A stretch of 64,000 bases of DNA from Actinokineospora inagensis DSM 44258 (GTDB lineage: Bacteria > Actinomycetota > Actinomycetes > Mycobacteriales > Pseudonocardiaceae), in contig NZ_AXWW01000007.1 in the NCBI RefSeq assembly GCF_000482865.1, positions 1-64,000 on the forward strand, read 5' to 3'. The notes below the pieces were generated by a model. The model was not told where the DNA came from. It saw only the letters and a list, made by a program, of their open reading frames with translations, and did no database searches. This document shows positions 18,755 to 51,737 of this stretch, one piece after another; the first letter of the stretch is position 1, and each line of letters opens with the position of its first letter. A program made the position numbers and the translations under genes.

Positions 18755-19128
18755 AACACCCCACCCCCCTCACCGACGAAGCACCACCCCCACCCCACCC
18801 CCACGCGCCTCAACCCCCCAGCCCCCATCGACGAAACACCGCGACCACCCAGCACCGCACCCCTCGAAACCCACCCCACATCGACAAAGGCCGCCAGCCC
18901 GCCCCGCGCGCCTCAAAACCCCAGCCCCCCATCGACGAAGCGCCACCCCCACCCCACGCGCCCAAAAGCCAGCCCAGATCGACGAAGCACCACCCCACCC
19001 CACGCGCCTCGAAACCCGCCCCTCATCGACGAGGGTCGCCAGCCCGCCCCGCGCGCCTCAAACCCCTGTCCCTCATCGACGAAGCGCCACCCCCACCCCA
19101 CGCGCCTCGGAACCCGCCGATCCCAACC
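18755..19128 (-). repeat. Array of ~49-bp degenerate repeats beside hairpin element A
   Basis: About seven or eight units of 47-49 bp. On the minus strand each carries GAGGCGCG, a G-rich run, a (C/T)TTCGTCGATG-type word and another G-rich run. Unit boundaries are clearest between 18890 and 19110. With the preceding 18560-18754 (C-rich, nothing recognised) it fills the chitinase-NUDIX intergenic region. Unit length is not a multiple of three and no single frame stays open, so I do not call a protein. Confidence 0.8.
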
Positions 19129-19277
19129 GCCCGCTGGGGTGGAGTTGTTTTGTTTGGGGGAGGCGGGGGCCTAAGCCGGCCGGCGGGTAAGGCCACGCTT
19201 TCCAGTGGCCCCGCCTTTTAGCCTTACCCAGGCCACCGCACAGGGGCCCCAAACAAAACAACTTCACCCCAGCGGGC
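19129..19277 (-). repeat. 148-bp hairpin element, copy A
   Basis: A near-perfect inverted repeat. The outer 31-bp arms (19129-19159 and 19247-19277) differ at one position and read inward GCCCGCTGGGGTG(A/G)AG and on to GTTTGGGG. Inside are further stems, CGGTGGCC with GGCC(A/C)CCG and GGGTAA with TTACCC, around the apical GGCCAC/GTGGCC. It is in the opposite orientation to copies B and C. Bases 19278-19356 form the flanking stem-loop module shared with copy B. Confidence 0.9.
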
Positions 19278-19356
19278 ACCCCGCATTATCTGGCGCATCC
19301 AGCGGCGTCGCCGCCAGGCGACAAGCAGTCCCCCGAGGCGCAGTGCCCCCTCACAC
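19278..19356 (-). repeat. Flanking module of hairpin element A
   Basis: Read on the minus strand this holds GTGTGAGGGGGCACTG, CGCCTCGGGGG, a GTCGCC...GGCGAC stem-loop and GCGCCAGAT. The same order occurs at 43802-43895, and a shortened form at 51541-51589, so the module belongs to the repeat. It abuts the 3' end of the NUDIX gene. Confidence 0.7.
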
Positions 19357-38222: not shown

Positions 38223-38426
38223 ATGACAGCACCCAGGGCGGGTGGCTGGGCCACAGTTTCGTTCCGCAAGTCCAGCCGCAGCGACACGAACGGTGGCGAC
38301 TGTGTGGAGGTGGGGTTCCGTTCTGGGCAGGTCGCCGTTCGGGACTCGAAGTGTCCCGGCGGTGGGCTGGTCGTGTTGCCCGCCGGCGCGTGGGTGGCGA
38401 TGTTGGCTTCCTTGTCGGAAAGGTGA
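38223..38426 (+). CDS. DUF397 protein 1
   Basis: A 67-residue DUF397 protein with the full motif string FRKSSRSDTNGGDCVEVGF, VAVRDSKCPGGGLVVLP and AMLASL. It follows the XRE gene by 5 bp and overlaps or abuts the next DUF397 start. DUF397 proteins are small partners of the adjacent XRE regulator. Confidence 0.9.
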   Translation: MTAPRAGGWATVSFRKSSRSDTNGGDCVEVGFRSGQVAVRDSKCPGGGLVVLPAGAWVAMLASLSER

Positions 38427-38431
38427 CCGCC

Positions 38432-38755
38432 GTGACTGACTGGGATGAGGTCCCGTTCCACAGGTCGAGCCACAGCGACGTGAACGGTGGCCAGTGCGTT
38501 GAGGTGGGCTTCCATCCCGGCGTGTTCCACAAGTCCAGCCGCAGCAGCACCAACGGCGGCAACTGTGTGGAGGTGGCGTTCCGCAAGTCCAGCCGCAGCG
38601 ACACCACCGGCGGCGAGTGCGTTGAGGTGGCGTTCCGCCCAGGCTTGGTCGCGGTCCGGGACTCGAAGTGCCCGGATGGTGGGCTGATCGAACTGTCCGC
38701 AAGCGCGTGGGCTGAGGCGTTGGCCTCTTTGCCGAGAGGTGGTTGTCGTGACTGA
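38432..38755 (+). CDS. DUF397 protein 2 with expanded repeats
   Basis: A 107-residue protein in which the N-terminal half-motif is present three times in a row (FHRSSHSDVNGGQCVEVGF, FHKSSRSSTNGGNCVEVAF, FRKSSRSDTTGGECVEVAF) before one copy of VAVRDSKCPDGG. This is an in-frame internal expansion, most simply by unequal recombination between neighbouring genes. GTG 38432 follows GGAAAGG; GTG 38423 overlaps the previous stop and is an alternative. Confidence 0.85.
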   Translation: MTDWDEVPFHRSSHSDVNGGQCVEVGFHPGVFHKSSRSSTNGGNCVEVAFRKSSRSDTTGGECVEVAFRPGLVAVRDSKCPDGGLIELSASAWAEALASLPRGGCRD

Positions 38756-38936
38756 CTGGGCCGCGATCTCGTTCCGCAAGTCCAGCCGCAGCGATGTAAA
38801 CAGTGGCAACTGTGTGGAGGTGGGCTTCCGTCCCGGTCTGGTCGCGGTTCGCGATTCGAAGTGCCCGAGCGGTGGGCTGGTCGTGTTGCCCGCCGGCACG
38901 TGGGTAGCGACGTTGGCTTCGTTGTCAGGAAGGTGA
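38748..38936 (+). CDS. DUF397 protein 3
   Basis: A 62-residue standard DUF397 protein (ISFRKSSRSDVNSGNCVEVGF, then VAVRDSKCPSGGLVVLP). Its start overlaps the end of the preceding gene by 8 bp; GAGAGGTGG precedes the GTG. Confidence 0.88.
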   Translation: MTDWAAISFRKSSRSDVNSGNCVEVGFRPGLVAVRDSKCPSGGLVVLPAGTWVATLASLSGR

Positions 38937-38949
38937 TCGTTGTGACTGA

Positions 38950-39198
38950 TTGGCCTCTGTCCCGTTTCTCAAGTCCAGCCGCAGCAGCACCAACGGTGGT
39001 GACTGCGTTGAGGTGGGGTTTCGAGCTGGCGCGTTCCGCAAGTCGAGCCGCAGCGATGTCAACGGCGGTGACTGCGTAGAGGTGGCCTTCCACCCTGGTC
39101 TGGTCGCTGTCCGGGACTCGAAGTGCCCAGGCGGTGGGCTGGTCGTGTTGGCCGCTGGCGGGTGGGCGGCGATGTTGGCTTCCCTGTCGGAAAGGTGA
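38950..39198 (+). CDS. DUF397 protein 4, 5' frameshift, two half-motifs
   Basis: An 82-residue frame from a TTG at 38950 encodes FLKSSRSSTNGGDCVEVGF, a second FRKSSRSDVNGGDCVEVAF and one VAVRDSKCPGG. The expected start (GTG at 38942, read VTDW as in its sisters) is in another frame: one base is missing near 38953 compared with the parallel stretch at 39204. Either the TTG is used or the gene is disabled at its 5' end. Confidence 0.7.
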   Translation: MASVPFLKSSRSSTNGGDCVEVGFRAGAFRKSSRSDVNGGDCVEVAFHPGLVAVRDSKCPGGGLVVLAAGGWAAMLASLSER

Positions 39199-39203
39199 CT
39201 GTC

Positions 39204-39383
39204 GTGACTGACTGGTCCAGTGTCGCGTTTCGCAAGTCGAGCCGCAGCAGTACGAACGGTGGCGAGTGCGTCGAGGTGGCGTTCCGCCCCGGCCTGGTCG
39301 CTGTTCGCGACTCGAAGTGCCCCGATCGTGGGCTGGTCGAACTGCCTGCGAGTGCGTGGACCGCGTTCTTGAAGTCGGTCTAG
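39204..39383 (+). CDS. DUF397 protein 5
   Basis: A 59-residue standard DUF397 protein (VAFRKSSRSSTNGGECVEVAF, then VAVRDSKCPDRGLVELP). GGAAAGG precedes the GTG. It is the last of the array and is followed by a strong hairpin. Confidence 0.88.
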   Translation: MTDWSSVAFRKSSRSSTNGGECVEVAFRPGLVAVRDSKCPDRGLVELPASAWTAFLKSV

Positions 39384-43539: not shown

Positions 43540-43553
43540 GGATTGGTGAAGGG

Positions 43554-43585
43554 GCCCGTGCACCTGGTGGGTGTGCGGGCTTTTT
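43554..43585 (+). terminator. Rho-independent-type terminator after ctaF
   Basis: GCCCGTGCACC, loop TGGT, GGGTGTGCGGGC and a T5 run, 15 bp after the ctaF stop. One of the few hairpins in the window followed by a U tract. Confidence 0.85.
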
Positions 43586-43661
43586 CGGTTTTCTGGGCTG
43601 GTGGGGTGATCTTGGTTCGCGGGTCTTGATGGGGGTCTTGGTTGGATGATCTTGGTTTGGT

Positions 43662-43801
43662 GATCTTGTCGGGGAGTTCGTCTAGGCTGTGTATTCAGGG
43701 GCTCAAGTTCGGGTTGATCATGGTTGCCGGTCGGCTGGGCGGTCTTGTCGGTGGGCTTGGGTAGGCTGTGTATTTGGGGGCTTTGTGCTCGGTTGATCTT
43801 G
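43662..43801 (+). repeat. Two-unit ~79-bp direct repeat
   Basis: The words CTTGTCGG, TAGGCTGTGTATT and GGTTGATC recur in order 79 bp apart (TAGGCTGTGTATT at 43683 and 43762). Shorter GATCTTGG words continue to the left (43606-43660). No ORF is supported. It fills the space between the ctaF terminator and hairpin element B. Confidence 0.65.
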
Positions 43802-43895
43802 GTGTGAGGGGGCACTGGGCCTCGGCTTCGCCTCGGGGGTCGGCCTGGTCGCCTGCCGGCGACGCCGGCCTCGGGCGCCAGATGAAAGCGGGGGT
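43802..43895 (+). repeat. Flanking module of hairpin element B
   Basis: GTGTGAGGGGGCACTG, CGCCTCGGGGG, a GTCGCC...GGCGAC stem-loop and GCGCCAGAT in the same order as the reverse complement of 19278-19356. Confidence 0.7.
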
Positions 43896-44043
43896 GCCCG
43901 TTGTGGTGAAGTTGTTTTGTTTGGGGCCCCTAGCGGTGGCCTGGGTAAGGCTAAAAGGCGGGGCCACTGGAAAGCGTGGCCTTACCCGCCAGCCAGCTTA
44001 GGCCACCGCTCCCCCCAAACAAAACAACTTCACCACAACGGGC
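43896..44043 (+). repeat. 148-bp hairpin element, copy B
   Basis: Perfect 31-bp outer arms (43896-43926 and 44013-44043) reading inward GCCCGTTGTGGTGAAG. Two positions differ from copies A and C, and both differences are matched in the opposite arm. The inner stem AGCGGTGGCCT with AGGCCACCGCT also shows a paired A-T for G-C exchange relative to copy C. The apical part is the same as in the other copies. Confidence 0.92.
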
Positions 44044-44240
44044 GGTTGGTGTCGGCGGGTTTCGAGGCGCGCGGTGCCAGTGTGGGGTTTCGCTGATATG
44101 GGGGAGTGTTTTTTTGGGCGCGGTGCGCGTGTGGGGCTTTGTCGATATGGGGCGGGTTTTGAAGCGCGCGGTGTCGGTTGGCGGCCCTCGTCGATGAGGG
44201 GCGGGTTTCGAGGCGCGTGGGGTGGGGTGGGGTGGTGGCC
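44044..44240 (+). repeat. ~49-bp repeat array beside hairpin B
   Basis: Three to four degenerate units (TTTCGAGGCGCG..., CTCGTCGATGAGGGG...) run from the hairpin to within about 20 bp of the trpD stop. Same unit as at 18755-19128 and 51738-51863. Confidence 0.78.
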
Positions 44241-44256
44241 TTTGTTGATGTGTTTC

Positions 44257-45294
44257 CTAGGCCAGTTCTTGGGAGCGTTGGATCCAGCGGTCTAGGAGGG
44301 TGGCGGTGGCGCCGGTGTCGATGGCTTCGGCTGCTTGTGTTAGGCCTGCCTCGAAGTCGGCGTAGAGGTCTTCGGTGAGGCCTCGGTGGGTGGCGATGGC
44401 GCCGGCGGCGTTGAGGATGACGGCGTCGCGGACGGGGCCTTTTTTGCCTGCGAGGAGGTCTCGCACCACTTGGGCGTTGTAGGGGGCGTCGCCGCCGCGG
44501 AGGTCTTCTGGGTGGGATTGGGGGATGCCGAGGTGGGTGGGGTCCAGGGTTAGTTCGCGGACGTTGCCGTCGGATACCGCCCATACCGAAGTTGTGGTGG
44601 TGGTGGTGATTTCGTCGAGGTTGTCGTTGCCGCGGACTACCAGGACCGAGGCGCCGCGGGAGGCGAAGACCTCGGCCATGACGGGGGCCAGGCGGAGGTT
44701 CGCGCAGCCGACCAGACCGGCCTTGGGTTGGGCTGGGTTCGTCAACGGGCCCAGCACATTGAACGCCGTGGGGATGCCGAGTTGGCTGCGGACGGGGCCC
44801 GCGTGGCGGAGGGCGGGGTGGAAGGCGGCGGCGAAGCAGAAGGCGATGCCGATGTCCGCGAAACAGGTGGCGACGGCTTCCGGGGACAGTTCGATGGCGA
44901 CGCCGAGTTCTTCCAAGACATCCGCGGTGCCGCATTTCGACGAGGCGGCGCGGTTGCCGTGTTTCACCACGGGGGCGCCTGCGGCGGCGGTGACCAGGGA
45001 CGTCATCGTGGAGATGTTGACCGTGTGGGCCTGGTCGCCGCCGGTGCCGACCACGTCCACGGCGGGGTGGTCGATGTGGACTCGGCGGGCGTTGGCCATC
45101 ATGCCGTTGGCGAGGCCCGCGATTTCGGCGGGGGTTTCGCCCTTGCAGCGCAGGGCGACCACGAAAGCGGCGATCTGGGCGTGGGTCGCGGCACCGGCCA
45201 TGATCTCGTTCATGGCCCACGCGGTGTCCGCCGCGTCCAGGTCGGTCCCGGAGACCAGTAAGTTCAGGACGGCCTTCCAGGAACGCTCGGCCAT
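44257..45294 (-). CDS. trpD: Anthranilate phosphoribosyltransferase
   Basis: A 345-residue TrpD. The PRPP-binding [18 protein letters not shown], the [21 protein letters not shown] loop and [14 protein letters not shown] are all present, with [14 protein letters not shown] near the C-terminus. It attaches phosphoribose to anthranilate in tryptophan synthesis. It is alone here, as in mycobacteria, between the oxidase genes. The next gene upstream starts 5 bp away, so the two may be co-transcribed. Confidence 0.96.
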
Positions 45295-51540: not shown

Positions 51541-51589
51541 TTGTCGCCTTCGGCGACGCCGCTGGATCGCGCCAGATTTTTCGGGCTGT
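51541..51589 (+). repeat. Short flanking module of hairpin element C
   Basis: Only the GTCGCC-TTC-GGCGAC stem-loop and CGCGCCAGAT remain of the module seen at 43802-43895. Confidence 0.6.
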
Positions 51590-51737
51590 GCCCGCTGGGG
51601 TGAAGTTGTTTTGTTTGGGGCCCCTGGCGGTGGCCTGGGTAAGGCTAAAAGGCGGGGCCACTGGAAAGCGTGGCCTTACCCGCCGGCCGGCTTAGGCCAC
51701 CGCCTCCCCCAAACAAAACAACTTCACCCCAGCGGGC
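51590..51737 (+). repeat. 148-bp hairpin element, copy C
   Basis: Perfect 31-bp arms (51590-51620 and 51707-51737) reading inward GCCCGCTGGGGTGAAG. Inner stem GGCGGTGGCCT with AGGCCACCGCC, then GGGTAA/TTACCC and the apical GGCCAC-TGGAAAGC-GTGGCC. It lies between convergent genes. Confidence 0.92.

Follow-up and report, generated by a model that had tools for sequence, protein, structure and literature searches.

Why does a stretch of 64,000 nucleotides (the window, meaning the whole DNA analysed here) carry the same 148-bp hairpin three times between its genes, with changes in one arm matched in the other? The original prediction considered a MITE-like mobile element, a terminator-like structure or a protein-binding hairpin, folded either as RNA or as DNA cruciform. 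We find that the hairpin belongs to a multicopy family with an intact fold, covariation, a strand bias of its imperfect pairs, presence or absence at matching sites and a bias in gene context. The reading we favour, at about an even chance, is a non-autonomous mobile element spread via one folded single strand and akin to ERIC, YPAL and REPIN repeats.

Hairpin copies in the window and their architecture

All three copies named by the original prediction are present. They are listed here together with the features around them.

19129..19277, + strand: hairpin copy A, inverted with respect to copies B and C
43896..44043, - strand: hairpin copy B; imperfect pairs of the family are G.U on the strand given, with AGGGGCCCC in the 3' arm
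51590..51737, - strand: hairpin copy C, orientation as copy B
43551..43585, + strand: terminator-like hairpin of the ordinary type, with a T-run, following the cytochrome oxidase gene and outside the element
43666..43688, + strand: promoter-like motif TTGTCGG-N10-TAGGCT in the first upstream module of B
43745..43767, + strand: the same promoter-like motif, 79 bases on, in B's second upstream module
43820..43863, + strand: linker seen in many copies, containing two short inverted repeats (CCTCGGCTTCGCCTCGGGG; GTCGCCTGCCGGCGAC)
44044..44252, no strand: degenerate repeats following B, whose register is shared by copy C and others (repeat families D6 and D7)
51543..51557, + strand: linker stem-loop GTCGCCTTCGGCGAC upstream of copy C
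19307..19322, - strand: linker stem-loop of copy A
18790..19115, no strand: 49-bp units in tandem (6.6 copies, 73% matches), lying downstream of copy A

Including 10 flanking bases per side, copy B forms an end-to-end fold of -117 kcal/mol, compared with -69.5 +/- 4.6 kcal/mol for 200 shuffles (z -10.3). The two changes described for the outer arm (GCCCGTTGTGG in B versus GCCCGCTGGGG in A and C) are both compensated in the opposite arm. The inner replacement of G-C by A-T in copy B relative to copy C is real as well. Copy A has an additional unmatched change at position 14 of the outer arm, which forms a G.U pair on the proposed folded strand. It is absent from the original description and common to 36 of the 79 copies in the window's genome. 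The intergenic location also stands: B and C are situated between convergent genes and A between two genes that are both on the - strand. Copy B is flanked by genes for cytochrome c oxidase subunit IV and a trpD-like protein, copy C by a gene with weak beta-lactamase-fold similarity (left) and an AsnC-domain gene.

The core consists of a ~145-base rod of three stacked stems. The outer stem (~20-31 bp) is closed by GGGG/CCCC, whereby an AGGGG bulge adjoins the CCCC. The middle stem covaries freely, and the loops of the apical GC stem are partly conserved. The + orientation is the one with GGGGCCCCT in the left arm. In many copies of the window's genome the hairpin is preceded by 0-3 modules ~79 bp apart (TTGTCGG..TAGGCTGTGTATTCGGGGGCT..GGTTGATCTTG) and a linker with small inverted repeats, and followed by degenerate ~49 bp units. 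Copies in this genome are alike over the region represented by 43667-44252 of the window.

Using a strict pattern, the module is found in 29 of the 70 own-genome copies having 500 bases upstream. In the relative G003, whose blocks represent an unbiased sample, 6 of 7 modules are located <600 bp from a hairpin and all 6 point at it in one orientation (reversed control 0), while most hairpins there have no recognisable module. For hairpin-selected loci, 20 of 26 modules in the own genome are near a hairpin, 20 of them in that same orientation, and the respective numbers for G005 (A. diospyrosa) are 54 of 55 and 50. Both modules of the window are near a hairpin. The module spacing presumably resembles that of the RecA-NDp promoter bound by PafBC. 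Passages in the literature on Actinobacteria indicate that a motif of this type exists there. In three inserts of G005 (L094, L101, L224) TTGTCCACA-like strings are repeated beside the promoter-like modules; we take them to resemble actinobacterial DnaA boxes.

Copy number, distribution and covariation

The count of three holds for the window and understates the genome. A 20-base arm pattern (<=3 mismatches) has 141 matches per strand of the window's genome, with 0 in the reversed control. Since each hairpin contributes one arm per strand, this corresponds to ~141 hairpins; the central motif alone has 110 matches. G003 contains 55 full hairpins within the 1.6 Mb examined of 7.68 Mb. Overall, genomes of Actinokineospora and of certain related soil bacteria carry between a few and a few hundred hairpins.

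BLAST and exact patterns gave family matches in 6 or 7 of 16 genus genomes and in none of 281 other genomes of the taxonomic family. The restriction to 7 of 16 species turned out to be wrong and reflects a sensitivity limit, as a first covariance model, derived from 59 copies in 7 species, has matches in all 16 genus genomes at E 1e-3. Match counts of such a model do not equal copy numbers, since either strand of the palindrome can score. The single match in G006 is a 69-base deleted relic. A second model was used to search 249 genomes of the taxonomic family at E 1e-5 and matched 48 of them, comprising 15 of 16 genus genomes (none in G006) and 33 genomes of 10 other genera. Together with Actinokineospora this makes at least 11 genera within a single actinomycete family. 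Fifteen loci were inspected from 7 of the 10 other genera: their arms are wholly different, and GGGGCCCC at the stem base as well as parts of the inner loops recur. Among the 22 matches listed for a third model (394 genomes of the class, few members of the taxonomic family among the matches listed, E 1e-5, strict filters) none is outside the genus, the window's genome and G013 being the only ones represented. This class-wide result is weak evidence of absence.

The whole length of the window has no match in Rfam at gathering score. For 43600-44300 two microRNA precursor families only were obtained, below gathering (E 1.1e-5 and 0.033). With the window's hairpin as query no match was found in plasmid and phage collections at E 0.01, a search which diverged relatives would escape. 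Searches of a library of open-access papers turned up no description of the hairpin family.

That paired changes maintain the fold is supported by a genus-wide covariation test with 35 copies of 15 genomes, in which alignment and structure derive from the same copies and the shuffles ignore kinship. Double changes are present at 31 of 37 base pairs, paired cells amount to 96.4% versus 72.8% in shuffles, and none of 500 shuffles reaches any of five covariation measures. The covariation score is 0.683 compared with 0.08-0.12 for slid structures. Arms such as GTGAAGCTGGGTGATCC, GCCTGTTTGGGTGGTTC and GCTCGATGGGGTGGACC are fully paired despite unlike sequence. The folded shape is kept across the family while most letters have changed.

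Paired changes might arise without any selection on the folded strand if the hairpin acts as a DNA-level palindrome, either by cruciform formation or by replicative arm-to-arm conversion. In many copies the arms are indeed near-perfect, with 80 of 160 rows lacking an arm mismatch (window's genome, hairpin counted per strand), and both strands fold equally well in this genome. However, preservation extends to the non-palindromic middle stem and internal loops, and conversion is blind to the strand in contrast to the wobble counts given below. We regard this explanation as unlikely.

Strand bias of imperfect pairs

The main wobble count covers the outermost 30 pairs in 231 copies of seven genomes. 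On the + strand the imperfect pairs include 329 A.C or C.A (that is G.U on the - strand) versus 11 G.T or T.G, besides other mismatches; counted as species-position events the ratio is 40:10. Eight further genomes (19 copies) give 18:1 (p 8e-5), and the 15 loci of 7 other genera 10:1. The - strand folds better in 41/41 copies of G003, 55/58 of G005, 14/14 of G008, 11/11 of G014 and 8/8 of G002, so that the G.U strand is the better folding one in 129 of 132 copies of five species.

No fold preference is seen in the window's genome (39/79 copies) or in G011 (10/20). The 25 rare variant types at paired sites of the window's genome comprise 6 G.U, 3 standard and 16 pair-breaking ones. Their wobbles are distributed 6 to 5 on the two strands, i.e. 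without bias, and 36 of the 42 wobbles in this genome occur at a single site. Taken alone, the window's genome shows the strand bias only weakly.

The bias makes selection on a single folded strand (RNA or ssDNA) more likely than a cruciform, which predicts none, and than arm conversion, which being strand-blind does not lead to 329:11, 18:1 or 10:1. The original choice between RNA and a cruciform is refined in this way. The objection that gene conversion alone explains the pairs is weakened by the bias. A mutational bias on one strand (C deamination) may be an alternative cause of the wobbles. Deamination alone does not yield the pattern at outer pair 14 (GC 17, GU 12, AU 5), since both the G-C and the A-U partner of the wobble exist. 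The orientations of the G003 hairpins relative to the replication direction look mixed.

Given its direction, the promoter-like module would drive transcription of the strand opposite the G.U one. A retro-copying route would account for a module oriented in one direction and a fold under selection on the opposite strand: a damage-type promoter module would give rise to + strand RNA, reverse transcription to a folded - strand ssDNA, and the latter would be inserted behind genes. The inserted - strand would then be the one with G.T imperfect pairs, and the repeat would copy itself via its own transcript, a new kind of bacterial element. We consider this specific route a long shot.

Gene context, empty sites and mode of spread

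Gene context was analysed in 1.6 Mb of G003 using a simple codon-based gene caller. Hairpins occupy 23 of the 221 convergent regions and 11 of the 806 tandem ones; the 219 divergent regions and the called genes contain none (convergent versus rest p 9e-11; tandem versus divergent p 0.13). In seven genomes, 179 classified copies split into 108 convergent, 35 and 28 tandem and 8 divergent ones; 52 of 231 copies were unclassified due to short flanks (39), a missing flanking gene call (12) or gene-call overlap (1).

Bidirectional terminators between convergent genes would fit this enrichment, and T-run-less hairpins are discussed as terminators in Actinobacteria in parts of the literature. However, no T-run follows copies A-C, and the copies in the 23 convergent regions of G003 are 29-257 bases away from the nearer stop codon. 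Canonical terminators are equally frequent in such regions with a copy (5/23) and without (34/198). At site B, moreover, the ordinary terminator at 43551..43585 precedes the element and is present in relatives both with and without it. Based on the distances and the equal frequencies, the originally suggested terminator-like structure is not supported, and we rate bidirectional terminators as highly improbable.

At site B, 6 of 14 aligned genomes have a short gap (63-235 bp) without copy, and two further genomes (429 and 851 bp) have no copy either. Five long regions were seen in part, and G005 possesses its own copy there in opposite orientation. Site C is devoid of a copy in 13 of 13 aligned genomes, 10 of which have -2 to 33 bp and the other 3 another gene. 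Inserts at five sites of G005 measure 576, 810, 1082, 1206 and 518 bp versus 40, 0, 18, 20 and 10 bp in G003. Among the 32 rows of this comparison 9 (7 places) have a G003 copy as well, its orientation being the same in 5 and opposite in 4; part of the insertion sites is therefore shared or hot. The inserts are 500-1900 bp in length and contain variable repeats, with no clean unit. By eye, no target-site duplication was seen at 11 filled/empty pairs, the ends of which are blurred by repeats.

Similarity among copies is 0.84-0.93 within species and 0.62-0.70 between own and other species, with flanking genes being ~80-87% identical between species. This implies recent spread or homogenisation per lineage. 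Adjacent copies that run in one direction (16 pairs) mostly resemble each other more closely (means 0.94 and 0.91) than randomly chosen pairs do (0.875), which points to local duplication; the mean of four +- neighbour pairs is 0.79. Arrays of 3-5 hairpins, mostly direct and ~90-130 bp apart, occur in G003 at 3102317-3103540, 3224957-3225880 and 3393400-3394370. Oppositely oriented pairs are present in the own genome at L016, L024, L028, L134 and L263, and both L028 copies share 70 downstream bases.

A structured noncoding RNA or mRNA 3' element with host function, duplicated and kept by RNA selection, is a possible though clearly less probable explanation than the mobile element; it has also been put forward for ERIC, and for YPAL in Yersinia. 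Strand-specific G.U tolerance and covariation are expected from RNA selection. The location behind genes agrees with it, and similar effects of ERIC on neighbouring mRNAs are reported in passages of PMC2229807 and PMC2267715. In contrast to a cis-acting RNA, however, the orientation relative to co-directional neighbour genes is near even (35 opposite, 28 same). The drop in copy number to about one relic in G006 and the absence of copies at matching sites speak against this explanation as well.

A mobilising partner was sought in the 1.6 Mb of G003 and in own loci >3.6 kb, and neither an autonomous copy nor a transposase with these arms was found in them. Besides the full hairpins, G003 has 2 unpaired arms 39 bases apart, which represent a shortened hairpin. 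The 7 unpaired arms of the own loci comprise 5 beside assembly gaps and 2 truncated copies near contig ends. The latter (L252 near 3678, L264 near 3735) retain a single outer arm and end close to CTAG or CTTAG; they are located <= ~320 bases from the contig end, and an assembly error is possible. MITE-like mobility as originally suggested is supported in part by the copies missing at matching sites, while no target-site duplication was seen and no transposase with the arms was found.

Beyond being hairpin repeats in high copy, REPINs go along with a RAYT transposase and a constant GTAG tag. A RAYT/REPIN link was rejected, as PF01797 (Y1 transposase) occurs in 2 of 16 genus genomes (G001, G012), the window's genome not being one of them, and in 5 of 14 control genomes. 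In contrast to REPINs with RAYT, the hairpin family lacks a Y1 transposase in 14 of the 16 genus genomes, has a longer three-stem core and carries no constant GTAG tag. A GTAG/GTGG-type tag is absent from the hairpin foot, where the preceding bases vary by eye (ggggt, tagt, aagt, tggt, ctgt). Likewise rejected was a REP13E12-like/DUF222-HNH link, suggested by the promoter-like module, with DUF222 in 2 of 16 genus genomes (G011, G012). The clustered flanking proteins of the copies are ordinary genes, and no transposase family is recurrent across all species. An IS3-like transposase neighbours seven copies, of which six belong to G003 and one to G008. By eye, IS110-like transposase frames are seen in L434 (1-570) near a family hairpin and at the orthologous site B of G002.

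Like ERIC and YPAL, the hairpin family is an intergenic multicopy stem-loop with filled and empty sites. The comparison with both is by description only, and the sequence is probably unrelated to ERIC. In passages of PMC2229807 and PMC2267715, ERIC (IRU) of enterobacteria is a 127 bp near-palindromic intergenic repeat forming one long stem-loop. It is similar to the hairpin family in being noncoding, present in many copies and without known transposase (same passages). In contrast, short terminal repeats, TA ends and target duplications are given for ERIC in PMC2229807 and were not seen in the hairpin family, whereas cross-genus covariation and strand bias are documented for the hairpin family, unlike for ERIC as described. 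YPAL (RU-2, Yersinia, 168 bp) resembles the family according to the same text by being palindromic, not A+T-rich and without TA ends and by having empty and filled sites (PMC2229807). It differs by target duplications of 3-26 bp, none being seen in our case, and the passages on YPAL describe it without tandem modules like ours (PMC2229807). Correia/NEMIS of Neisseria is, in the parts of PMC2229807 concerned, a similar hairpin-forming intergenic repeat of ~107-155 bp with long terminal repeats; the hairpin family differs by unrelated sequence and in that no TA ends or duplications were seen. REPINs share high-copy hairpin repeats that are uniform within and different between lineages (PMC3116915).

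For the mobile element favoured here, a candidate enzyme, probably supplied in trans, would recognise one particular folded strand (RNA or ssDNA) and so let the copies spread. Inserted copies would persist chiefly behind genes, in particular between convergent ones, and differential survival, not targeting, may cause the context bias. This reading draws on the ~141 copies, per-lineage homogeneity, empty sites, covariation, strand bias and context bias. Against it stand the lack of a visible duplication, of a mobilising gene and of an autonomous copy, furthermore the shared sites, the unclean inserts, the strand parity in the window's genome and the direction of the promoter-like module. A spreading noncoding element with selection on one folded strand fits most of the data; the selection may be for mobility or for a host function.

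The hairpin family adds very strong covariation, up to a few hundred copies per genome and an occurrence in at least 11 genera to what is described for such repeats. The wobble strand bias is a simple test to distinguish a single strand from a DNA palindrome for any palindromic repeat. Close relatives with filled and empty sites make the movement of ERIC- and YPAL-like repeats testable.

Core motifs are located <300 bases from many contig ends of the own genome (e.g. C1, C2, C29, C34, C37, C49, C61, C63, C67); the hairpin repeat probably breaks short-read assemblies of the genus. A separate repeat of the window at 38259-39383 consists of ~8 related 60-bp copies and represents a gene array. It has a reading frame with FRKSSRS, which we take to resemble DUF397.
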